A DNA stretch of 64,000 nt from Geothermobacter ehrlichii (GTDB taxonomy: Bacteria; Desulfobacterota; Desulfuromonadia; Desulfuromonadales; Geothermobacteraceae). Under the pieces are notes generated by a model that was not told the DNA's origin, made no database searches, and saw nothing but the letters and a program-made list of their open reading frames with translations. Below are positions 45,401 to 55,695 of the stretch, piece by piece. Every line of letters begins with the position of its first letter. The first letter of the stretch is position 1. Both the position numbers and the translations under genes were made by a program. Location: positions 186,001-250,000 of the forward strand of contig NZ_VNIB01000004.1 in NCBI RefSeq assembly GCF_008124615.1, given 5' to 3'.

Positions 45401-45640
45401 CTGCTTGATGCCGTCAACCCCGATCAGATTCTCCTCGATCTTGAGCAGCACCCCTTCCTCGACCTCTTCCGGGCCGGCCCCGGGATAGGCGACCGAAACC
45501 TGGATCATGTCGAGGGAGATTTCCGGAAAGACCTCCTGCTTGATACCGAAACCGAGCAGCACGCCGCCGACGATGAACACCAGCATCAGCAGGTTGGCCG
45601 CCACATGGTTGCGCGCCATCCAGCGAATCGCGCCGTTCAT
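42455..45640 (-). CDS. RND-family efflux pump inner-membrane subunit (AcrB/MdtB-like)
   Basis: Large proton-driven exporter (1061 residues) of the hydrophobe/amphiphile or heavy-metal RND class. Twelve hydrophobic helices occur in the canonical 1 + 5 / 1 + 5 plan, separated by two large periplasmic loops. Landmarks are the N-terminal NGAIRWMARNHVAANLLMLVFI and the helix 4 stretch FAFIMALGIVVDDAIVVGENV, whose paired Asp is the proton-relay site. The GVVVNDSLLLIDYAN repeat is near the end. It overlaps the adaptor gene by 4 bases. The substrate is unknown; a TetR repressor controls the operon. Confidence 0.93.
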   Translation of the reverse strand: MNGAIRWMARNHVAANLLMLVFIVGGVLLGFGIKQEVFPEISLDMIQVSVAYPGAGPEEVEEGVLLKIEENLIGVDGIKQIRSVASEGFGTVTAELDTDADPDRVLADIKSEVDRITTFPEDAEEPVISKLLNRHEVISVVVYGDVSERALREQAERVRDDLLEYPQITQVDLAGVRPYQITIEIPEQRLRQYGLTLDAVADRIRRASLDLPGGTVKTAGGDILIRTKERRYFGPGYRDIVIRTLPDGTQVRLGDLARVIDGFAETDLAARFDGKPAAMVKVSRVGRQKPIEISRIVRDYVEKRRAELPTSIRIAAWNDTSELFKSRRDLLVKNARIGLVLVFLVLGLFLEIRLAFWVMLGIPISFCGALLFMPGMDVSINMISMFAFIMALGIVVDDAIVVGENVYDHRQMDKPYPQAAEDGAIEVGRAVVFAVLTTIAAFAPLLFTGGMLGKFIGVIPKVVIVILLVSLVESLFVLPAHLALGKRRPLGKGLLGRIDRVRRWFGRQLERFISGPYRRVLAWCLRYRYVTLAGSIAVLLLTVGTFFGGILKFHFMPEVDGDLITVDLELPPGTPYAQTEKVVRRVLDAGNRAVAEFDAGLPEGKSVLRHVYAVIGGRISGTHGPGPDDAQTASNIANIVMLLTKSENRDVPATAISDRWRELTGEIPGVETLTFASNLVRMGANIDIQIAHEDFAVLEMAAGRVKAALAGYPGVTDIADNYAVGKRELKIRLSDEGRTLGLTELDLGRQLRAAYYGTEALRLQRGRNEVKVLVRYPEQERQFLWNLEQLRVRTPDGGEVPLLRAADVVEGRGYAQINRSDRKRVINVTARVDSSKASADEILRELKAGLLADLARDYPGIGFDFEGEQKEQAESMDSMKTGFLLALFAIFALLAVPLRSYSQPLLIMSAIPFGIVGALLGHLIMGFSLSILSLFGIVALAGVVVNDSLLLIDYANGLRRSGLELTPTLLQAGQRRFRPIMLTSLTTFFGLMPMILETSVQAQFLIPMAISLGFGIMFATGITLLLIPSLYLILEDIRRLFGFKESHADHPGLPAVETEPR

Positions 45641-46800
45641 CGCGCCTCCTCCACCGTCCTGAGCAGCAACCCGTCCGCCGCCCCCGGCACCTGTGTCAGA
45701 ACCAGTTCGGCTCCGGCCTGCAGACCGTCGGAAACCAGAACCACATCCTTCTCCCGGCGAACGACCGTCACCCGGCGGATGCGCAGGCGCCCGTCCTCTT
45801 TCACCCAGACCCGGTTGCCTTCGCGCAACGCCTGTCGGGGCACTGGAATCACCCCGGAAATCGTGCGGCCGGCAAGCCGCAAACGAACGAAACTGCCGAC
45901 CGCCAGAGCCGGTTTCGACGACGCTTTCGCTTTCAGGCCATAGGGATCGTCGACCAGCACGGCGATCCGGGCCATGCGACCACGGCTGTCGACCTCGGCC
46001 AGGGCCCGGTCGACATATCCCCGCCAGTGCCTTTCACCTCCCGCCATGGGCAGAATGATCTCGGCCGGCGAGCCCCGGCGCCCCGGCTGGCGCGGAACAT
46101 CAAGCCACTGCAGATCGTCGGTGTCGAGGGGAACGATGATTTCTACCCGGTCGGTTCCGACCAGAGTCGCGACGGCATTGCCTGCGCGCAGGTACTGCCC
46201 CAGGTCGATCTTCTCGTCCTGCACATAACAGTTGAAGGGGGCACTGACAACCGTTCGTTGCAGATCGAGCCGGGCCTGTTCGAGAGCGGCGCGAGCCGCG
46301 GCGACAGCCGCCTCGGCGCTCTTGAGCTGCGGCTCAAAGACCGCCAGCGGCTGCGGCGGCTGGCCGGGATTCAGCTGCTCCCACTCCTGGCGGGCAATGT
46401 CGGCCCGCGCCCGCAGGGTTGCCAGTTCAACCTCCTGCCGACTCACTTCCGCCCGGGCCCGGTCGACGGCCAGACGATAGTCGATATCCTCCAGGGCGAA
46501 CAGCTCGTCTCCGGCGCGGAAAAAACCGCCGCTGACCAGACGCGGCGACATCCGGATCACGCGACCGCTGACCTGGGGTACGATATCGACCCGCCGGCGG
46601 GCCTGGACCGTCCCCGTCGCCTCAACCGTCACCCGATGGTCGACCGGCTGCACGCGAACCGTTTCCACCAGCACGCCGGTAAAGACGGGCGGTTTCTTCT
46701 CCGGGGCTTTGCGCGCATTGATCATCAGCATCAACCCGCCCGCACCGAGCAGAAGGATCAGCACCGGCAGAACAATCTTCAACAGCCTCTTGTCACTCAT
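45637..46800 (-). CDS. RND efflux periplasmic adaptor (membrane fusion protein)
   Basis: Periplasmic adaptor (387 residues) linking the RND pump to its outer-membrane channel. A single N-terminal membrane anchor (IVLPVLILLLGAGGLMLMI) is followed by a barrel-sandwich domain (QVSGRVIRMSPRLVSGGFFRAGDEL), a short alpha-helical hairpin (residues 110-180), and beta-barrel and membrane-proximal domains. The start at 46800 has GGAGA nine bases upstream and overlaps the outer-membrane gene's stop; an in-frame ATG at 46809 sits on top of the ribosome binding site and is less likely. Confidence 0.92.
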   Translation of the reverse strand: MSDKRLLKIVLPVLILLLGAGGLMLMINARKAPEKKPPVFTGVLVETVRVQPVDHRVTVEATGTVQARRRVDIVPQVSGRVIRMSPRLVSGGFFRAGDELFALEDIDYRLAVDRARAEVSRQEVELATLRARADIARQEWEQLNPGQPPQPLAVFEPQLKSAEAAVAAARAALEQARLDLQRTVVSAPFNCYVQDEKIDLGQYLRAGNAVATLVGTDRVEIIVPLDTDDLQWLDVPRQPGRRGSPAEIILPMAGGERHWRGYVDRALAEVDSRGRMARIAVLVDDPYGLKAKASSKPALAVGSFVRLRLAGRTISGVIPVPRQALREGNRVWVKEDGRLRIRRVTVVRREKDVVLVSDGLQAGAELVLTQVPGAADGLLLRTVEEAR

Positions 46801-48220
46801 GATTGTCATTCTCCCCGCTGGCGGCGAACCGCCGGCTTATCTCCCTGTCCATCCAGGTCCCGCCGAGGGCGCGGGCCAGACTGATGCGATCGCTGATCAG
46901 CTGCCGGCGAGCCGCCAGCAGTTCGCTGCGCGCCTGGAGGGCATTGCGCTGCGCCGACAGCACCTGAAGATAATCATCGATTCCGTAAAGATAATTTTTC
47001 CGGGCCAGGCGCAGATTAGCCGCCGTGGCGTCCACCATCGCCGCCAGACGTTCAATGCGCTGTTCATCACTGTGGTTGTCGGCCAGGGCGTCTTCGACTT
47101 CGCGATAGGCGTCGAGAACCGCCTGCCGGTACCCGGCCAGGCGCTCCCGCACCACGGCCCGGTTGCGCGCCACCTCCGCCCGCCTGCGCCCACCGTCGAG
47201 CAGCGGAAGCGCCGGCTGGATCAGCAGCTGCCAAAAATTGCCCGTAATCACGCCGATGCCGAAATCGGTCTGCAAAAATCCATAGTTGGCGGCAAGATTG
47301 AGAGTCGGCAGACGGTCGGCGATGGCGGCGGCAAGCTCGGCGTCAGCCGACCGCAACTGATGGAAACGCGCCGCGATGTCGGGCCGTCGCTGCAGCAGGT
47401 CGGCCGGCAGGCCGGTCGGAAACTGCTCCCTAAAGGCCGGCAGTTCGGCCAGGTTGCCCGACACCCCGCGGCCGGGATAGTCGCCCAGCAATACGGCGAT
47501 GCCATGCTCGGCCGTCGCCAGGTTGCGGGCGAACGTCGAGCGGCCGGCCTCCGCCGCGGCCAGGCTCTGCCGCGCCTGGTACAGTTCGGCGGCGGGAACC
47601 AGCCCCTGCCGGTAGCGACGCTCCACCAGCTTCAGGGTTTCACGGCAGGAAGCGACCGTCTCCTCGGCCAGCCGCAGCTGCGCCCGCTGTTCGGCGACGA
47701 AATAGTAGAGGTCGGCCAGTTGGGCGCTGAGACTGAGGTACAGGGTCTGCAGCTCGCTTCTGCTGGCCGCCGCCAGCTGCATCGCCGAGCGCTGACGGTC
47801 CTTCTGCTTGCTCCAGAAATCGAACTCGAAACTGCTCTGGGCCGAAAAACGATAGTTGTAGACCACAGCATTCTGAACGAAGCCCGGGACCTTCTCGCGG
47901 CTTCCCTGCCCGCCGAGACCGAGACTCGGCCAGCGGGCTCCACCGGCAATCCGCGTCGCCGCCCTCGCCTGCTCCAGGCGGGCAAACGCCTGCTCCAGCT
48001 GCAGGTTGCCGGTAAACAGCCGTTCCATCAGCCGGTCGAGCTGCGGATCGTGAAAAATCTGCCACCAGCGGTCGAGAACCGGCGCGGCCGCAACCGCTCC
48101 GGAATCCTCGACATACCGCCCCGGCGGTTCGACCGGCAGCGAAACCCGGGTCGGTCGGTACAGGCTGCAGCCGGCCAGCAGCAGGCCGCACAACAGCACC
48201 GAAGTCAATGCGAGTCTCAT
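46793..48220 (-). CDS. Outer-membrane efflux lipoprotein, NodT/OprM type
   Basis: TolC-superfamily outer-membrane channel (475 residues) for the RND system. The lipobox LLLAGC puts the lipidated Cys near residue 16, and the mature protein opens with the NodT-type DRWWQIFHDPQLDRLME segment. Two long helical repeats (residues 75-250 and 290-450) form the coiled-coil tunnel. The ATG at 48220 has GGAGG seven bases upstream and overlaps the TetR stop by 4 bases. Order in the operon: TetR, channel, adaptor, pump. Confidence 0.93.
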   Translation of the reverse strand: MRLALTSVLLCGLLLAGCSLYRPTRVSLPVEPPGRYVEDSGAVAAAPVLDRWWQIFHDPQLDRLMERLFTGNLQLEQAFARLEQARAATRIAGGARWPSLGLGGQGSREKVPGFVQNAVVYNYRFSAQSSFEFDFWSKQKDRQRSAMQLAAASRSELQTLYLSLSAQLADLYYFVAEQRAQLRLAEETVASCRETLKLVERRYRQGLVPAAELYQARQSLAAAEAGRSTFARNLATAEHGIAVLLGDYPGRGVSGNLAELPAFREQFPTGLPADLLQRRPDIAARFHQLRSADAELAAAIADRLPTLNLAANYGFLQTDFGIGVITGNFWQLLIQPALPLLDGGRRRAEVARNRAVVRERLAGYRQAVLDAYREVEDALADNHSDEQRIERLAAMVDATAANLRLARKNYLYGIDDYLQVLSAQRNALQARSELLAARRQLISDRISLARALGGTWMDREISRRFAASGENDNHE

Positions 48221-48852
48221 TCGGGAACCTCCATGCCGGCCAGGGTGTAGGCGAGCAGGACCTCGGCCAGGCGCGCGGTGTCGAGCCGCGCCTCGACGCC
48301 CGCCGGCAACTGTATGTGCCTGTCGTGGCAGCGCATGACATGGCTCAGAGAACCGATGGCGAAGTGCAGTCGCCAGAAGAGCAGCGTCCGGGATACCTGC
48401 GGCAGAGCCTGGTGCAAAGCTTCGAACAGCCGGCTGATGAAAGGCCCCATCTGGCACAGGAAGATGTCCCGCCCGACCCCTTCGGGATCGGCCAGGATGC
48501 GTCCCACCAGGGTGATGAACCGTTCCGGTCCCGCACCCTGGTCTCGCAGCCGGATGGTCGGCTCGATCAGGGCGCGCATCAGCTCGCGCGGGTCGGGGCG
48601 CCGACCGGCCCGGCGCGCCAGTGCCAGCTCGCTGTCGAGCAGGGCCAGCCGCTGCCGGTTGAGCGGCGCCAGGCGCCGCTCGATGACCGCTTCGAGCAGC
48701 TCTTCCTTGGAACCGAAATGGTAGTTGACCGCCGCCAGGTTGACGCCGGCATGGCCGGTGATCATGCGCAGGGACGTGGCATGAAATCCGCTGCGGGCGA
48801 AGAGTTCCTCGGCGGCATCGAGAATTCTTGTCTTGGTATCAGGCTGACTCAT
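48217..48852 (-). CDS. TetR-family transcriptional regulator of the RND operon
   Basis: Repressor (211 residues). Residues 8-55 form the TetR helix-turn-helix (ILDAAEELFARSGFHATSLRMITGHAGVNLAAVNYHFGSKEELL), followed by an all-helical ligand domain with the CerR/YbiH-type C-terminus. The ATG at 48852 has GGAG nearby; the in-frame ATG at 48861 overlaps the AAGG motif. It is the first gene of the RND operon and an inverted repeat overlies its promoter, so negative autoregulation is likely, with relief by a pump substrate. Confidence 0.93.
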   Translation of the reverse strand: MSQPDTKTRILDAAEELFARSGFHATSLRMITGHAGVNLAAVNYHFGSKEELLEAVIERRLAPLNRQRLALLDSELALARRAGRRPDPRELMRALIEPTIRLRDQGAGPERFITLVGRILADPEGVGRDIFLCQMGPFISRLFEALHQALPQVSRTLLFWRLHFAIGSLSHVMRCHDRHIQLPAGVEARLDTARLAEVLLAYTLAGMEVPE

Positions 48853-48886
48853 GGGCTCCATCCTTCGGCAAGCAACATCTTCGGCC

Positions 48887-49522: not shown

Positions 49523-51334
49523 ATGAGCTTTTACCAGCACCTGAAGGAACTGCTGCGGGAAATGGACATCCGGGCGATGGGGCGCCCCCTGCTCCTCGCC
49601 TCCCTGGTCGGCGTCATCGCCGGGCTCGGAGCAATTGCCTTTTCCGCCGGCGTTCACTGGTGCGACTCCTTCTTCCTTACCCAGCTCGGCCAGTACCATC
49701 CCCTGCCCAAAGGACTGGCGATGGACCAGATGCCGCAGATGACCAGCCTGCGGACGGACTACCGATGGTACCTCTTTCTGATTCCGGTCATCGGCGGACT
49801 GGTATCGGGCTTTCTGGTCTTTCGCTTCGCCCCCGAGGCCGAAGGGCACGGCACCGACGCCGCCATCGACGCCTACCACAACAAGGGCGGGATGATCCGC
49901 GGCCGGGTACCGATCGTCAAGGGACTGGCCTCGATCATCACCATCGGCACCGGCGGCAGCGCTGGCAAGGAGGGGCCGGTCGCCCAGATCGGCGCCGGCT
50001 TCGGTTCCTGGCTGGCAAGCCGGCTGGGACTGGACACCGCCGAACGGCGGGTGCTGCTGCTGGCCGGCATGGCGGGCGGCATCGGCGCCACCTTCCGGGC
50101 GCCCCTCGGCGGCGCCCTGTTCGCCGTCGAGGTCCTCTACCAGGATCCCGATTTCGAGCACGAAGGCCTGATCCCGGCCATCATCTCCTCCATCGTCGCC
50201 TATTCGGTCTTCGGCGCCGTCACCGGCTGGAAACCCCTGCTGGCGACGCCGGTCTTCGTCTTCGACCATCCGAGCGAGATGTTCAGCTACCTGTTGCTCG
50301 GTATTTTCTGCGCCCTGTTCGGCCGCTTCTACGTCCGGGTCTTCTACGGCATCCAGGAACGGTTCCGCGCCATCCCGCTGCCGGCGATGGTCAAGCCGGC
50401 CATCGGCGGGCTGCTGGTCGGCCTGCTGGCGATGCTGGTGCCACAGGTTCTCGGCTCGGGCTACGGCATGGTGCAGGCCGCCCTCTACGGCAAGCTCGCC
50501 ATCTGGGTGATGCTGGTCGTCGCCCTGGCCAAGATCTTCGCCACCAGCTTCACCATCTCGTCCGGCGGCTCGGGCGGCGTCTTCGCCCCGTCGCTGGTCA
50601 TCGGCGCCATGCTAGGCGGCAGCTTCGGCGCCATCATGGACAGCCTGTTCCCCGCCCTGGTGCAGGACCCCCGGGCCTATGTGCTGATCGGCATGGCCGG
50701 CTTCTTCGCCGGCGTTTCCAACACCCCCATCGCCACCCTGATCATGGTCTGCGAGCTGACCGGCAACTACGCCCTGCTGGCGCCGCTGATGCTGGTCTGT
50801 GTCGTCGCCATGGTCGTCTTCCGCAAGAACACCATCTATTGCCGGCAGGTCGCCAACCGGACCGAATCTCCGGCCCACTTCGGCGATTTCATCGTCGACG
50901 TCCTCGAGGGGATCCACGTCGCCGATCTGGCCGAACACGGCCGGAAACCCCACACCATCCCGGAGCACATGCCCCTGTCGGAGATTCTGGAAGAGATTGC
51001 CAACGCCGAGGGAGCCTACTACCCCACTGTCGACAAGGACGGCAACATGACCGGCATCTTCTCGGTCAACGACATCCGGCGCATTCTCGCCGAAGACCTG
51101 CCGCCGATGCTGGTGCTGGCCCGCGACATCGCCAACGCCAATGTCATCACCGCCCGCCCCGACGAACTGCTGACCGACGTCATGCGCAAGATGAGCAGCC
51201 GCGGACTGGAAGAGATTCCGGTGATGAACATCACCGACCCGCGCAAGGTGCATTTCATGCTTTCGCGCCGGGCCGTCCTCGCCCGCTACGCCGCCGAACT
51301 GGAAAAGAAGAAGGAAATCTACCGACCGGGCTGA
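49523..51334 (+). CDS. ClC-family chloride channel/transporter with C-terminal CBS pair
   Basis: Inner-membrane anion channel or chloride/proton antiporter (603 residues). The selectivity-filter segments are GTGGSAGKEGP near residue 150, whose Glu is the gating glutamate, and SGGSGGVFAPSLVIGA near residue 360. About eighteen helical segments cover residues 20-450. Residues 465-600 hold two CBS domains, including GIFSVNDIRRIL and SRGLEEIPVMN, likely to sense adenine nucleotides. No partner genes are adjacent. Channel versus antiporter cannot be decided from what I can see. Confidence 0.92.
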   Translation: MSFYQHLKELLREMDIRAMGRPLLLASLVGVIAGLGAIAFSAGVHWCDSFFLTQLGQYHPLPKGLAMDQMPQMTSLRTDYRWYLFLIPVIGGLVSGFLVFRFAPEAEGHGTDAAIDAYHNKGGMIRGRVPIVKGLASIITIGTGGSAGKEGPVAQIGAGFGSWLASRLGLDTAERRVLLLAGMAGGIGATFRAPLGGALFAVEVLYQDPDFEHEGLIPAIISSIVAYSVFGAVTGWKPLLATPVFVFDHPSEMFSYLLLGIFCALFGRFYVRVFYGIQERFRAIPLPAMVKPAIGGLLVGLLAMLVPQVLGSGYGMVQAALYGKLAIWVMLVVALAKIFATSFTISSGGSGGVFAPSLVIGAMLGGSFGAIMDSLFPALVQDPRAYVLIGMAGFFAGVSNTPIATLIMVCELTGNYALLAPLMLVCVVAMVVFRKNTIYCRQVANRTESPAHFGDFIVDVLEGIHVADLAEHGRKPHTIPEHMPLSEILEEIANAEGAYYPTVDKDGNMTGIFSVNDIRRILAEDLPPMLVLARDIANANVITARPDELLTDVMRKMSSRGLEEIPVMNITDPRKVHFMLSRRAVLARYAAELEKKKEIYRPG

Positions 51335-51508: not shown

Positions 51509-52117
51509 ATGCGTCCAGTCCTGCCCTCCCTGATCCTGCTCTTCGCAGTCATCCCCCCACTCAGCGCCGCCACCCTGCAAGGCACCTGCAGCGTTGCCTT
51601 CTTCGCCTCTTCGACCCTGCACGATTTCGAAGGCGAGGGCCGTTGCCATCCGTTCAGTATCGAGATCGATGATCAGGGCCGGCTGCAGGCGACCGACATC
51701 ACCGTTCCGGTCGCCGAAATGACCACCCACAACAAGAAACGGGACCGGAAGATGCGGGAAACGTTCGACGCCGAGCACTTTCCGCTGATAACCGGCCATC
51801 TGGCCGCCGCTCCGCTGGCGACCCTGCGCGACCAGCTGCACCAGGTTGCCGCGGGTGATGGCGCCTTCACGCTGACGCTGGGCATCAGGAACCGGGGCCG
51901 GACCGTGAGTGCCCGGATCGCCGACCTGGTCGATTCCCCTGAGAAGTTGGCGTTTCACTTGACATTCCCCGTTTCCCTGAAAAGCTATGGTTTGAAACCT
52001 CCGCCGGTCCTCGGATTCATCCGCGTAGCCGACCGGGTCAGGGTCGAGGTCGAGGTCGAACTCGAACCCCTGCCAACCCCGTGGCAGGAAAACGAACGGA
52101 AGGTATCCGCCAGATGA
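51509..52117 (+). CDS. Secreted YceI-family lipid/isoprenoid-binding protein
   Basis: Periplasmic protein (202 residues) with a signal peptide (cleavage after about residue 20, PLSA-ATLQ) and the YceI lipocalin-like beta-barrel (PF04264). Landmarks are SSTLHDFEGEG near the N-terminus, EMTTHNKKRDRKMRETFDAEHFP in the middle and the C-terminal GFIRVADRVRVEVEVEL. Characterised YceI-type proteins bind polyisoprenoids or amphiphilic lipids. Its stop overlaps the PKS start as ATGA, so it is translationally coupled to a lipid-synthesis operon. That suggests it binds the pathway's lipid product; this is inference. Confidence 0.88.
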   Translation: MRPVLPSLILLFAVIPPLSAATLQGTCSVAFFASSTLHDFEGEGRCHPFSIEIDDQGRLQATDITVPVAEMTTHNKKRDRKMRETFDAEHFPLITGHLAAAPLATLRDQLHQVAAGDGAFTLTLGIRNRGRTVSARIADLVDSPEKLAFHLTFPVSLKSYGLKPPPVLGFIRVADRVRVEVEVELEPLPTPWQENERKVSAR

Positions 52118-53208
52118 GCCCCGCCATCCATGCCATCGCCACGGCCACCCCGGAAATCGCCTACGATCAGCAGGAAGTCGGCGCCTGGATGCAGGACCGA
52201 ACCGACGATCCCCGGCAACGCCGCATCCTCAAAGCCCTCTACCGGACCAGCGGCATCCAGACCCGGCACAGCGTGATTCCCGGTTTCGGCCGGGATTTCT
52301 TCATCCGGGACACCGACGGACAGCTGCAGGAGCCGACCACCGGCGCCCGCAACGCCATCTACAGCCGCGAAGCCAGACAGCTCGGCCTGCAGGCCGGCCG
52401 GCAGCTGCTGGAGAAGGCGAAAGGCTTTGCGCCGGAGCAGGTTACCCATGTGGTGACCGCCTCCTGCACCGGCTTCTTCAACCCCGGACTCGACTATTTC
52501 CTGGTCCGCGAGCTCGGTCTGCCGGCCACCGTCGAACGCTACCATCTCGGCTTCATGGGCTGCTACGCCGCCTTTCCCGCCCTGCGCATGGCGGCCCAGT
52601 TCTGCCAGGCCGATCCGCAGGCGGTGGTGCTGGTGCTTTGCCTCGAGCTCTGCTCGCTGCATATCCAGCTGGGCGGCCGCGAGGATCAACTGTTGGCCAA
52701 CGCCCTGTTCGCCGATGGCGCCGCGGCAGCCCTGGTCAGCACCCGGCCGCCGCAACCCGGCCAGACCGTCCTGGCCCTGGAAGCCTTCCGCTCGGCGCTG
52801 GTGCCCGATGGCGAGGCGGACATGGCCTGGAGCATCGGCGATCGCGGTTTCGACATCGCCCTGTCGAGCTATGTGCCGAAAATCCTCGGTGCGAACATCG
52901 CCGCCGTGGTCGATGACCTGTTGCGAAACAGCGGCAGCAACCGGGAGCAGATCGGCGACTGGGCGATCCATCCCGGCGGCAAGTCGATCATCGACCAGGT
53001 CGCCAGGGCCCTGGAGCTGCAGCCCGAGCAGATCGCCGCACCGCGGGCGGTGCTGCGCGACTTCGGCAACATGAGCAGTGCTACCGTCCTGTTCGTCCTG
53101 CAGCAGCTGCTGGACGGCGAGCGCAGCGACCGGCCGCAGATCTGCAGCATGGCCTTCGGCCCCGGACTGACGGTCGAACTGGGCCTGCTGCGCTACCAGC
53201 AGGGCTGA
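52114..53208 (+). CDS. Type III polyketide synthase (chalcone synthase-like)
   Basis: Homodimeric polyketide synthase (364 residues) that extends a CoA starter with malonyl-CoA and cyclises it. The catalytic triad is complete: Cys150 in HLGFMGCYAAFPALR, His286 in WAIHPGGKS and Asn319 in RDFGNMSSAT. The N-terminus (AIHAIATATPE) and the GARNAIYSREA region match bacterial alkylresorcinol/alkylpyrone synthases more than plant enzymes. It overlaps the YceI gene by 4 bases and precedes an FAD monooxygenase and a methyltransferase. The same trio (PKS, hydroxylase, methyltransferase) makes methylated phenolic lipids in the srs locus of Streptomyces. A fatty acyl starter and resorcinol or pyrone product are inference. 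Confidence 0.92.
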   Translation: MSPAIHAIATATPEIAYDQQEVGAWMQDRTDDPRQRRILKALYRTSGIQTRHSVIPGFGRDFFIRDTDGQLQEPTTGARNAIYSREARQLGLQAGRQLLEKAKGFAPEQVTHVVTASCTGFFNPGLDYFLVRELGLPATVERYHLGFMGCYAAFPALRMAAQFCQADPQAVVLVLCLELCSLHIQLGGREDQLLANALFADGAAAALVSTRPPQPGQTVLALEAFRSALVPDGEADMAWSIGDRGFDIALSSYVPKILGANIAAVVDDLLRNSGSNREQIGDWAIHPGGKSIIDQVARALELQPEQIAAPRAVLRDFGNMSSATVLFVLQQLLDGERSDRPQICSMAFGPGLTVELGLLRYQQG

Positions 53209-53212
53209 GGTC

Positions 53213-54421
53213 ATGGCGACCCAGGCCTGGGATGTCCTGATCGTCGGTGCCGGACCGGTCGGGCTGCTGCTCGGCAACCTGCTCGGCCAGACCCGGAAAC
53301 GGGTGCTGCTCATCGACCGCCACCCTGGCCCGCCGACCGCCTCGATGGCCATCGGCATCACCCCACCGTCGCTGGCCATCCTGCGCACGCTCGACCTCGA
53401 CCGGCGGTTCTGCGCCTCCGGGGTGCGGGTCGAACACGCCGTGGTGCACGGCCACCGGCGGCGGCTCGGCGAGCTCTCCTTCGCCGGTCTCGATTCTCCC
53501 TGGCCGTTCATCCTCTCCCAGCCCCAGGCCACGACCGTCCGCCTGCTGGAAGAGAACCTGACCCGCTTCCCGAACGTGGAACTGCGCCGCGAGCTGCACC
53601 TGGAACGGCTCGAACAGCAGCCCGGACAGGTCGAGGTCGAACTGCGCACCGCCAGCGGACACCCCCTGGGCGAGAGCTGCCGTTTTCTAGCCGGCTGCAG
53701 CGGGGCCGAGGGGAGCGTGCGCCGCCAGTGCAGGCTCGCCGACCAGCCGCACTCCTACCCGCAGAGCTTTCTGATGGCCGACTTCGCCGACAGCGGCGAG
53801 CTGGGAGGCAGCGCCCATCTCTGGTTCACCGCCGACGGCTCGGTCGAATCCTTCCCCCTGCCGCAGCAACGCCGCCGCTGGATCATCCAGACGCCACAGC
53901 TCTGCCGGGACGTGGACCCGGGTTATCTCCCTGAAATCGTGGCCCGCCGCACCGGCTGCCGGCTACGGTCTCCGCCCCTGTTTCAGAGCGCCTTCGGGGT
54001 CCGCAGACTGCTCGCCCGCTCCTACGTCCGCGGGCGGGTAGTGCTGGCCGGCGACGCCGCACATCTGATGAGCCCGGTCGGCGGCCAGGGGATGAACACC
54101 GGCTTCGCCGACGCAGCCTGGCTGGCGCAGGCCCTGGACGGAATGCTGACCGGCAGCGGCTCGCCGGCCCTGCTGGAGGAGTACAGCACCGCCCGCCGCG
54201 AAGCGGCGCGGGTCGCCATCGGCCGGGCCGGCCGCGGCATGTGGCTGGGCACCCGTCGCGGCCGGCTGCACTGCCTGTGGCGCGAACCGCTGCTGAAACT
54301 GCTGCTGTCACCGGCGATCCGTCACCATCTGCCACCATATTTCGCCATGCTGACCATCCCCAACAACCCGCCCCAGGCCTGCCCGGCCCTCGGTCAGCGA
54401 TCCGGGACATGTTCATCATGA
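53213..54421 (+). CDS. FAD-dependent aromatic monooxygenase (UbiH/PHBH-like)
   Basis: Flavoprotein hydroxylase (402 residues). The Rossmann GAGPVG sits at residues 12-17 and the ribityl-binding GDAAHLMSPVGGQGMNTGFADA motif is near residue 283. The protein is the length of group A flavin monooxygenases that hydroxylate phenols. It starts 4 bases after the PKS stop and is followed by a methyltransferase. By analogy with SrsC it probably hydroxylates the resorcinol ring, which then oxidises to a quinone. A halogenase is less likely because the WxWxIP motif is absent. Confidence 0.87.
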   Translation: MATQAWDVLIVGAGPVGLLLGNLLGQTRKRVLLIDRHPGPPTASMAIGITPPSLAILRTLDLDRRFCASGVRVEHAVVHGHRRRLGELSFAGLDSPWPFILSQPQATTVRLLEENLTRFPNVELRRELHLERLEQQPGQVEVELRTASGHPLGESCRFLAGCSGAEGSVRRQCRLADQPHSYPQSFLMADFADSGELGGSAHLWFTADGSVESFPLPQQRRRWIIQTPQLCRDVDPGYLPEIVARRTGCRLRSPPLFQSAFGVRRLLARSYVRGRVVLAGDAAHLMSPVGGQGMNTGFADAAWLAQALDGMLTGSGSPALLEEYSTARREAARVAIGRAGRGMWLGTRRGRLHCLWREPLLKLLLSPAIRHHLPPYFAMLTIPNNPPQACPALGQRSGTCSS

Positions 54422-54448
54422 CGAAAGATGCTGGCTCAAGGAACGCCC

Positions 54449-55201
54449 ATGCCCCGCTTCAACCTCGACAGCCGTAACTGGCTCGACAGCCCCGAACGCA
54501 AACGCGACTACAACCGCCGGCACTTCGCCGCCGCCGCCGCGGCCTACGACCGGGCCACCGTCGCCATGAGCCTCGGCCGCGACCGGGCCTGGAAACGAAG
54601 GATGCTGACGCTGCTGCCCGACCATCCCCGGCCGCGCTGCCTCGACCTGGCCTGCGGCACCGGCGACATCTGCGAACTGCTGGCGCGCCGCTATCCCCGG
54701 GGAGAGATTGTCGGCCTGGACCTGACCTGCGAAATGCTCGAGCTGGCACGACGGCGCGTCACGGCAGCCAACGTCCGGTTCGTCGAGAGGGACATGGCCG
54801 AAACCGGCTTCGCCGACGCGTCCTTCGACATCATCACCGGCAGCTACGCCCTGCGCAACGCGCCCGACCTTCCCCTGGCCCTGAACGAGATCAGGCGCCT
54901 GCTCAAGCCCGGCGGCCAGGCCTGTTTTCTCGATTTCGCCCGCGCCGGGCACCCCGTCGCCCGCCGCCTGCAATACCTTCTGCTACGCAGCTGGTGCGGA
55001 CTCTGGGGACGCGTCCTCTCCGGCAGCTGGCAGGTACACGGCTATATCGCCGAAAGCCTGGCCCGCTACCCCGACAGCCGCCAGCTGGCTGCGATGCTGG
55101 CGGAGGCCGGTCTGGAACGAATCGACGAACAGGAGCTTTTCGGTGGTATGATGAGGCTGTTGCTGGTGCGGCGCCCTGCCGCCGGCAAAAACGACTGCTG
55201 A
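54449..55201 (+). CDS. UbiE-like class I SAM-dependent methyltransferase
   Basis: Soluble methyltransferase (250 residues) close in layout to UbiE/MenG. It has an N-terminal helical segment, the SAM loop LDLACGTGDICELL near residue 71, GLDLTCEMLELAR near 99 and SYALRNAPDLPLALNEIRRLLKPGG near 142; the YALRN block is typical of quinone C-methyltransferases. The ATG at 54449 has AAGGA six bases upstream; the ATG at 54428 is in frame but less supported. As third enzyme of the PKS operon it likely methylates the ring carbon or a hydroxyl of the polyketide. Being the cell's general menaquinone methyltransferase is the alternative. Confidence 0.85.
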   Translation: MPRFNLDSRNWLDSPERKRDYNRRHFAAAAAAYDRATVAMSLGRDRAWKRRMLTLLPDHPRPRCLDLACGTGDICELLARRYPRGEIVGLDLTCEMLELARRRVTAANVRFVERDMAETGFADASFDIITGSYALRNAPDLPLALNEIRRLLKPGGQACFLDFARAGHPVARRLQYLLLRSWCGLWGRVLSGSWQVHGYIAESLARYPDSRQLAAMLAEAGLERIDEQELFGGMMRLLLVRRPAAGKNDC

Positions 55202-55212
55202 AGGAGCCATGC

Positions 55213-55695
55213 ATGACACGCCCGTTGCACGCCGTTATCGTCAGCTGCCTGATCGGCAACGACGCCGGTGAGGTTCTGCTCATCCGCCATCCGAAACGGG
55301 GCTGGGAACTGCCCCAGGGACATGTCGAGCAGGGAGAGGACCTGTTGACCGCCGTCCGGCGGGAGGTGCGGGAAGAGACCGGAATCGAAATCGCCGTCGA
55401 GCGCCTGGCGGCCATCTTCAGCAAGCAGGAACCGGCTCCTTCGGCTGTCATCTTCGGATTTCACGCCCGCCATACCGGCGGCGAAATGCGGCCGAGCGAC
55501 GAAAGCCTGGAGGTCGCCTGGTTCAGCCGGCAACAGGCCATCCGGTTGCCCGAACATCCGGTCAACCGGGAAAGGCTCGCGGTGCTGTTGCGCCCGGAAT
55601 CCGGAATCGTCTACCAGGCCTACACTACCGGCCCCTACCGGATAACGGTCGGCGACATCCCGCTCTGGAGCGATGCAGGGAGAGTGAACGCCTAG
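55213..55695 (+). CDS. Nudix hydrolase
   Basis: Pyrophosphohydrolase (160 residues). The Nudix box is complete at residues 36-58 (Gly36, Glu42, Arg50-Glu51, Glu54-Glu55, Gly57). The box is preceded by LLIRHPKRGWELPQGHVEQG, which resembles ADP-ribose or RNA-cap-type hydrolases. The ATG at 55213 has AAGGAG six bases upstream and lies 11 bases after the methyltransferase, so it is in the same operon. Its last 4 bases overlap the convergent HD-GYP gene. The substrate is unknown; a role in nucleotide clean-up is as likely as one in the PKS pathway. Confidence 0.88.
   Translation: MTRPLHAVIVSCLIGNDAGEVLLIRHPKRGWELPQGHVEQGEDLLTAVRREVREETGIEIAVERLAAIFSKQEPAPSAVIFGFHARHTGGEMRPSDESLEVAWFSRQQAIRLPEHPVNRERLAVLLRPESGIVYQAYTTGPYRITVGDIPLWSDAGRVNA

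Follow-up and report, generated by a model that had tools for sequence, protein, structure and literature searches.

A four-gene operon of Geothermobacter ehrlichii, encoding a YceI-family protein, a type III polyketide synthase (PKS), an FAD-dependent aromatic hydroxylase (FMO) and a UbiE-type methyltransferase, probably makes and handles a phenolic lipid, an alkylresorcinol that would be hydroxylated on the ring, methylated to a hydroquinone or quinone type and carried by the YceI protein. The operon lies in a window of 64,000 nucleotides (contig NZ_VNIB01000004.1, positions 186,001 to 250,000); positions given below are those of the window. The linkage of the genes is conserved in relatives, one domain fusion is found, and the FMO and a protein of the U32 family exclude each other in their distribution. 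The three-enzyme core is of a known kind; what is new lies in relatives, which exchange FMO and U32 and mostly also encode an MMPL exporter and, in many cases, a secreted protein.

The four genes are all encoded on the plus strand and run head to tail, which the ORF coordinates and Pfam matches confirm for the preliminary description. The YceI gene (51509..52117, 202 aa, signal peptide likely as judged by eye) is followed by the genes for the PKS (52114..53208, 364 aa), the FMO (53213..54421, 402 aa) and the methyltransferase (54428..55201, 257 aa, start possibly at 54449). As had been claimed, the stop of the YceI gene overlaps the start of the PKS gene in the ATGA at 52114-52117. In the ORF reading the PKS and FMO genes are 4 bases apart and the FMO and methyltransferase genes 6 bases, or 27 bases with the start at 54449. 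Pfam profile searches of the whole genome returned a single match to PF00195 and a single match to PF04264. The operon neighbors in the window are genes for a CLC channel, a NUDIX protein and an HD-domain protein. The NUDIX gene (55213-55695) begins 11 bases past the methyltransferase gene; it was excluded from the operon parts because it is present in only 1 of 110 loci, many of which end before a NUDIX gene could show.

The PKS matches Chal_sti_synt_N (PF00195) with 88.2 bits and Chal_sti_synt_C (PF02797) with 89.6 bits, both above the curated Pfam cut-offs, and the Cys-His-Asn triad, reported earlier as intact and found so here in alignment to PKS18-type chains, lies at C150, H286 and N319. 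The FMO scores 168.6 bits with FAD_binding_3 (PF01494), above the curated cut-off; its GxGxxG and GD motifs are present, the DG motif reads SG, and among solved structures it comes closest to aromatic oxygenases, PnpA and PgaE among them. The methyltransferase scores 134.7 bits with Ubie_methyltran (PF01209), above the curated cut-off, and 163.9 with the NCBIfam model MenG_MenH_UbiE (TIGR01934, cut-off 158.35). Judged from its sequence, it belongs to the quinone C-methyltransferase (UbiE/MenG) subfamily. These scores bear out the first assignment of the two enzymes as a group A flavin monooxygenase and a UbiE-like methyltransferase.

The YceI protein carries the PF04264 domain (39.5 bits, cut-off 23.7) and is modeled with the YceI beta-barrel fold (pLDDT 89.6); all 21 PDB matches of the model at E <= 0.001 are YceI-family chains, with the polyisoprenoid-binding TT1927b on top. 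Because a YceI gene directly precedes the PKS gene in 23 of the 24 genomes of the order that encode a complete close PKS (G023, where just 83 residues of such a PKS stand at the end of a contig, is not counted), YceI is no chance neighbor. The pair is kept across families of the order and also occurs in Verrucomicrobiota and Kiritimatiellota, so that the conservation in relatives on which the earlier proposal had been made to depend was found. Of 59 well-flanked loci from several phyla, 29 have YceI close to the PKS, and in 27 of these an FMO or U32 gene is found as well. PF04264 scores range from 25 to 54 bits at the 17 PKS loci with a detected YceI and from 135 to 187 for most other YceI proteins of the order; by these scores the PKS-linked proteins form a divergent subfamily. 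The YceI alignment comprised the protein of the window and 42 of 45 from relatives, overlong or fragmentary frames having been dropped.

The coupling of YceI and PKS had been called the unusual part of the operon. The linkage has proved conserved, but the coupling is not wholly new, since for one planctomycete-like strain a gene for a 'lipid/isoprenoid-binding protein' has already been mentioned in a type III PKS operon, and the 'S. ferox' operon shares such a gene with the operon described here (excerpts of PMC10896814). No paper combining a type III PKS with YceI was found in open-access PMC text, and PMC10896814 words its similar link differently. Ligands given for YceI proteins are octaprenylphenol or ubiquinone-8, and BcnA/LcoA, which has the same fold, is a member of a family binding prenylphenols and ubiquinone and protects against lipid peroxyl radicals (sections of PMC9113575). 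The YceI protein described here differs from BcnA/LcoA in being tied to a PKS operon and in belonging to a divergent subfamily. No cytochrome b561 gene was present beside YceI among the neighbors scanned in the window.

The parallel drawn at the outset with pathways of the srs type, which lead to phenolic lipids and quinones, is apt. A type III PKS with its triad, an FAD hydroxylase and a methyltransferase share one operon in the window, as a type III PKS, a methyltransferase and an oxidoreductase or hydroxylase do in the srs (Streptomyces griseus) and pkq (Mycobacterium smegmatis, Streptomyces) operons, and these actinobacterial operons are described as giving alkylbenzoquinones (excerpts of PMC9927152 and PMC5916927). 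Compared by operon make-up, the difference lies in the UbiE-type methyltransferase and YceI, in an MMPL gene and a secreted protein that are often present, and in the U32 that substitutes for the flavin enzyme in relatives. The hidABC hierridin operon and planctomycetal alkylresorcinol operons likewise combine a methyltransferase, an FAD oxidoreductase and a type III PKS, but their gene order is unlike that found here, with the PKS often last, and the excerpted text mentions no U32 exchange (PMC10896814). Since the three-enzyme core is thus known from srs, hierridin and polyketide-quinone clusters, the product is likely an alkylresorcinol modified by hydroxylation and methylation, perhaps to a quinone.

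The same core could instead yield a structural or protective membrane lipid, an alkylresorcinol or hierridin-like methoxyphenol, with the methyltransferase and FMO or U32 only decorating the ring and YceI serving as a stress lipocalin or a general lipid carrier; we consider this rather doubtful. It agrees with the absence of YceI from 30 of the 59 loci and with hierridins being O-methylated alkylresorcinols (PMC8086630, in part). In the test host, planctomycetal relatives of the pathway made alkylresorcinols, methylated or not, but no quinone, and the planctomycetal oxidoreductase yielded no alkylquinone in C. glutamicum, which counts against a quinone (PMC10896814, same excerpts). The quinone reading is favored over a structural lipid by the subfamily of the methyltransferase, by the hydroxylase that accompanies YceI in nearly all of its loci and by the alkylbenzoquinones of the actinobacterial operons.

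Among the 24 genomes, 11 have the FMO, 10 a U32 protein, two a distant FMO and one neither; none has both (Fisher p 1.5e-4, uncorrected for descent, with lists compiled by hand). FMO matches under 75 residues were not counted as FMO, and 3 of the 11 FMO genomes have a damaged FMO frame. The nearest relatives of the window are U32 genomes, which lack the FMO and carry U32 on a contig other than that of the PKS. Operons of U32 and PKS account for 7 of 8 high-scoring loci from other classes of the phylum, and the exchange recurs with divergent PKS (G096 and G098 versus G105). In a wider U32 group a PKS was seen at 0 of 20 further loci (300-359 bits, flanks up to 1.5 kb). No paper combining a type III PKS with a U32 peptidase, and no report of the U32 exchange, was found in open-access PMC text. 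A reading of U32 as a strict-anaerobe trait was rejected: PF00115 occurs in all 24 genomes regardless of the hydroxylase. This heme-copper oxidase family includes nitric oxide reductases too. PF00115 is missing in G096, G098 and G497 and present in the other U32 genomes checked outside the 24, and bd oxidase (PF01654) gave no clear pattern with FMO or U32.

The window has no U32 gene; the aligned U32 proteins of relatives (9 of the 10 distinct proteins of the first search and five further ones, overlong or fragmentary frames dropped) all match PF01136 (Peptidase_U32), and the protein matches the solved U32 chain 5d88 (E 3e-13). Ten cysteines are invariant in 14 of 14 rows (C180-x3-C184, C212-x3-C216, C359-x4-C364-x2-C367-x2-C370, C73 and C170); their spacing departs from the published Fe-S motif CX6CX15CX3/4C, as does that of UbiV. 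Likeness to the E. coli U32 hydroxylases is marginal. In ubiquinone synthesis the O2-dependent flavin hydroxylases are UbiI, UbiH and UbiF. UbiU and UbiV are U32 proteins that hydroxylate the ring of a lipid phenol without O2 (excerpts of PMC6747719). By analogy, prephenate would be a candidate oxygen donor for the U32 of relatives. The present case differs from UbiUVT/UbiIHF in that no genome among those analyzed combines FMO with U32 and in that U32 is one longer chain, with no UbiU-UbiV pair.

We consider it unlikely that U32 is no functional counterpart of FMO and serves elsewhere (in a peptidase-like, Fe-S or maturation role), the exclusive pattern being that of two inherited cluster types. 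On the PKS tree, with 19 chosen loci as outgroup, the FMO and U32 rows fall largely into separate groups, with at least two changes; the U32 gene occupies another operon position than the FMO gene; and we know of no U32 of this subfamily that has been characterized. These points favor separate roles, but the lack of any genome with both hydroxylases among the 24, the nearest relatives with U32 away from the PKS and no FMO, the repeated exchange with divergent PKS and the invariant cysteines argue for equivalence.

An MMPL gene is found in 18 of the 24 genomes and many relatives add a gene for a secreted protein; the cultured FMO strain Pelovirga terrestris M08fum, for one, has YceI-PKS-FMO-MMPL. 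These genes of relatives, like the exclusive FMO/U32 exchange, could not be seen in the preliminary description. The window's operon holds neither an MMPL gene nor a secreted CHI-like gene, and other MMPL matches of its genome are only 26-35% identical to the MMPL of G093. For the secreted protein (13 of 14 distinct proteins aligned, overlong or fragmentary frames dropped), neither a Foldseek match nor a Pfam family was obtained at E <= 0.001. Structure comparison (VIA) gave chalcone isomerases, CHI-like proteins and AIM46p as the top 11 rows, with Z 7.8-6.6 and the next at 4.6, where Z under 8 may mean a common arrangement; a chalcone-isomerase-like fold of the modeled protein is possible. 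The label 'LolA-like' was dropped because the matches listed by Foldseek or VIA include no LolA chain and point to this fold.

The solved chains nearest to the PKS are PKS18 and 7cb3, which we take to be MMAR_2190. A Trp that may correspond to W281 of ArsB is present in 90 of the 90 PKS read. That the PKS uses a small starter for a non-lipid aromatic or pyrone, the YceI adjacency being regulatory or historical, is very improbable: profile scores give no sharp separation of the classes (238 bits for the best, about 200 for chalcone synthases), but pks18, of which MMAR_2190 is an ortholog, is alkylpyrone-making (PMC5916927, in part), the DpgA model gives 193.9, far under its cut-off of 425, and the company of YceI, and in most of the 24 genomes of MMPL, is conserved.

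In the proposed pathway the PKS would join a long acyl starter and malonyl-CoA to an alkylresorcinol, and the FMO would put a hydroxyl on the ring, a step that the single-chain U32 may take in about as many relatives, presumably without O2. The UbiE-type enzyme would C-methylate the ring to a hydroquinone- or quinone-type lipid. In many relatives, though not from the window's operon, an MMPL exporter and the secreted protein could move the lipid out of the inner membrane, and YceI would ferry it in the periplasm. The product may serve as a redox-active envelope lipid, either electron carrier or antioxidant. We tentatively propose, as a possibility short of probable, a Gram-negative polyketide (non-isoprenoid) quinone, MMPL-exported and YceI-ferried as an outer-membrane carrier or antioxidant, with interchangeable hydroxylases, a flavoprotein using O2 or a single-chain U32 Fe-S protein working without it.

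The swap of an O2-using hydroxylase for a U32-family protein in relatives makes product and carrier testable: FMO and U32 strains are predicted to converge on one lipid, whose formation in FMO strains would depend on O2. If the hydroxylases are interchangeable, U32 proteins would gain a new substrate class, and this would be the second pathway after ubiquinone in which O2-dependent and O2-independent hydroxylases replace each other. If the proposal is true, the YceI family would gain a genetically coupled ligand and the range of polyketide quinones would grow beyond Actinobacteria to include Desulfuromonadales and further Gram-negative bacteria.

The four genes of the operon lie on the forward strand where the preliminary description had placed them, as an ORF and sequence check confirmed: a YceI gene (51509-52117), a type III polyketide synthase (PKS) gene (52114-53208), a gene for a group A FAD-dependent aromatic hydroxylase (FMO; 53213-54421) and a UbiE-type methyltransferase gene (54428-55201), each above the curated Pfam cut-off. 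The ATGA overlap of YceI and PKS is present at 52114-52117, and the catalytic triad of the PKS is complete (C150, H286, N319). The methyltransferase also scores above the NCBIfam threshold that defines the MenG/UbiE subfamily. A genome search gave a single match each to PF00195 and PF04264. A NUDIX gene (55213-55695, Pfam, same strand) starts 11 bases past the methyltransferase gene and may share its transcript; it was found in one of 110 PKS loci, many of which stop short of where it would lie. Upstream of the operon is a CLC chloride channel gene with a CBS domain (49523-51334, Pfam); CLC matches also lie upstream of YceI-PKS in the related genomes G093 and G094 (loci L002 and L003). An RND-efflux-like set on the reverse strand (45637-48861), judged by eye, would comprise a membrane-fusion protein (45637-46809), a TolC-like protein (46793-48457) and a TetR-like regulator (48217-48861).

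Passages of the literature name alkylbenzoquinones as products of the srs and pkq operons (PMC9927152, PMC5916927), report that mycobacterial polyketide quinones support low-O2 respiration (PMC9927152, PMC5916927, PMC10896814), and describe alkylresorcinols as products of planctomycetal operons, which in one strain include a gene for a lipid/isoprenoid-binding protein (PMC10896814); the hierridin clusters are another comparison system (PMC8086630). YceI structures are described as containing octaprenylphenol or ubiquinone-8, and BcnA/LcoA as tied to protection against lipid peroxyl radicals (PMC9113575). Because of these precedents the enzyme core of the operon is of a known kind.

Among 136 searched genomes of the order Desulfuromonadales, 24 contain a full-length PKS with at least 54% identity to that of the window (close PKS); G023, with a PKS of only 83 residues at a contig end, was excluded. 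The predicted conservation of YceI beside the PKS held in 23 of these 24 genomes, where YceI is located directly upstream on the same strand (frame broken in G048, short in G087); the exception is G006. A second collection, the best 80 loci among the matches listed, overlaps partly with the first in genomes and spans Desulfuromonadales, Verrucomicrobiota, Kiritimatiellota, Gemmatimonadota, Bacteroidota, Balneolota, Deinococcota and others. YceI was found in 29 of the 59 loci with sufficient flank among these best 80 listed, 27 of them also with FMO or the peptidase-U32 protein (U32) that many relatives have instead; the 30 loci without YceI include a hydroxylase in 16 cases (Fisher p 9e-4, kinship ignored). 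Two clusters devoid of any hydroxylase, G006 and L043, also lack YceI (n=2 only). In three Verrucomicrobiota loci (L057, L088, L094) YceI is found at the opposite operon end, in the order PKS-MMPL-UbiE-YceI, so the YceI-PKS link outlasts rearrangement. PF04264 detects the PKS-linked YceI protein at 17 of 23 loci, with scores of 25-54 bits; most other YceI proteins of the order score 135-187 bits. The model of the window YceI (pLDDT 89.6) matched YceI-family chains in all 21 PDB matches at E <= 0.001, with the polyisoprenoid-binding TT1927b at the top. Judged from gene neighborhoods, the coupling of YceI and PKS is solid.

The most surprising part of the finding, as far as gene content indicates, is an apparent exchange of the hydroxylase, unreported in the open-access PMC text searched. 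Many relatives have no FMO, and a peptidase-U32 gene stands immediately upstream of the methyltransferase gene instead. Searches of all 136 genomes with both proteins placed an FMO of at least 43% identity in 11 of the 24 close-PKS genomes and a U32 of at least 68% in 10; two (G057, G090) have a distant FMO (33-34% identity) about 5.5 kb upstream, G006 has neither, and none of the 24 has both (Fisher p 1.5e-4, or 5.6e-6 counting the distant FMOs; kinship ignored). A PKS match below E 1e-20 occurs in 43 of the 136 genomes, which include all 13 genomes with a U32 of at least 40% identity and all 12 with an FMO of at least 40% identity over at least 145 residues. G093 and G094, the nearest relatives of the window, gave no FMO match and have U32 and PKS on separate contigs; they adjoin the window in a PKS tree (quick method), which gives at least two FMO/U32 changes. 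The exchange is repeated with divergent PKS (30-34% identity), as U32-methyltransferase-PKS in G096 and G098 and with FMO in G105. A search of 395 genomes of the phylum with the U32 profile found eight loci of at least 398 bits in other classes. In seven of them a PKS lies no more than 1.5 kb away, and five of these seven also have YceI; the eighth has UbiE, MMPL and the secreted protein. A group of 20 loci with lower scores (300-359 bits; L187-L206), from other families of the phylum, showed no PKS in the available flank of up to 1.5 kb; L190 and L198 of this group contain a tandem duplicate. FMO frames are damaged in three of the 11 FMO genomes (G011, G018, G048) and the U32 genome G015 contains FMO-like fragments past the methyltransferase gene, so FMO is decaying in places. 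Right behind the methyltransferase gene of the U32-type cluster L039 (from 9425) lie fragments resembling FMO, in at least two reading frames, with the look of a decayed gene. All these findings are gene patterns, and draft-assembly errors can conceal or break genes.

The U32 proteins UbiU/UbiV, RlhA and TrhP are described as participating in O2-independent hydroxylation, with Fe-S clusters demonstrated for UbiU/UbiV (PMC6747719, PMC11574389). All 14 aligned U32 proteins from relatives match PF01136, and the alignment contains ten invariant cysteines, two groups of four plus two, in a spacing that departs from the published U32 hydroxylase motif; of four E. coli U32 proteins TrhP alone matched, weakly. 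Two Fe-S clusters in a single chain would fit the remark in a review that more than one appears to be required (PMC11574389). Heme-copper oxidase (PF00115) is present in all 24 close-PKS genomes, FMO and U32 types alike, versus 64 of the remaining 112 genomes of the order (Fisher p 1e-5, kinship ignored); U32 is therefore rejected as a strict-anaerobe marker. PF00115 is absent from three U32 genomes whose PKS is divergent (G096, G098, G497).

Relatives contain two further genes. An MMPL-family (exporter family) gene belongs to the operon in 18 of the 24 close-PKS genomes, one representative showing Pfam MMPL and sterol-sensing domains, and in 13 of the 24 the next gene encodes a roughly 200-aa secreted protein. 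None of 13 members scanned matched a Pfam family at E 0.001, and the model (pLDDT 87) gave zero Foldseek matches at E <= 0.001. In a second structure comparison the top 11 rows (Z 7.8-6.6, then 4.6) were chalcone isomerases, chalcone-isomerase-like proteins and AIM46p, which we take to share that fold; the comparison is at most suggestive of a chalcone-isomerase-like fold. The MMPL of G093 carries this domain as a C-terminal fusion (residues 760-945 of 954, E 3e-27), and the G094 MMPL is of equal length. The window operon contains neither gene; other MMPL matches in its genome share 26-35% identity with the G093 MMPL.

The closest solved PKS chains are PKS18 and 7cb3, presumably MMAR_2190. MMAR_2190 is given as an ortholog of the alkylpyrone-making pks18 (PMC5916927), and ArsB W281 is associated with resorcinol rather than pyrone (PMC9927152). 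All 90 PKS that were read, one of them by eye, have Trp at the candidate position, which may correspond to W281. The closest solved relatives of the FMO are aromatic oxygenases. Twelve Verrucomicrobiota loci have an ACP gene, and likewise 12 a ketosynthase gene, beside the PKS, as if these clusters had their own acyl supply; PKS-FMO clusters of this kind are L061, L071, L074, L076, L078, L080, L082, L086, L087, L089, L090 and L098. We infer that the PKS would most likely form an alkylresorcinol, to be hydroxylated on the ring by FMO or U32 and methylated at a ring carbon by the UbiE-type enzyme, and YceI would most likely carry the lipid in the periplasm. The operon is real and conserved, probably as a phenolic-lipid operon, and the lipid product proposed for it is plausible.
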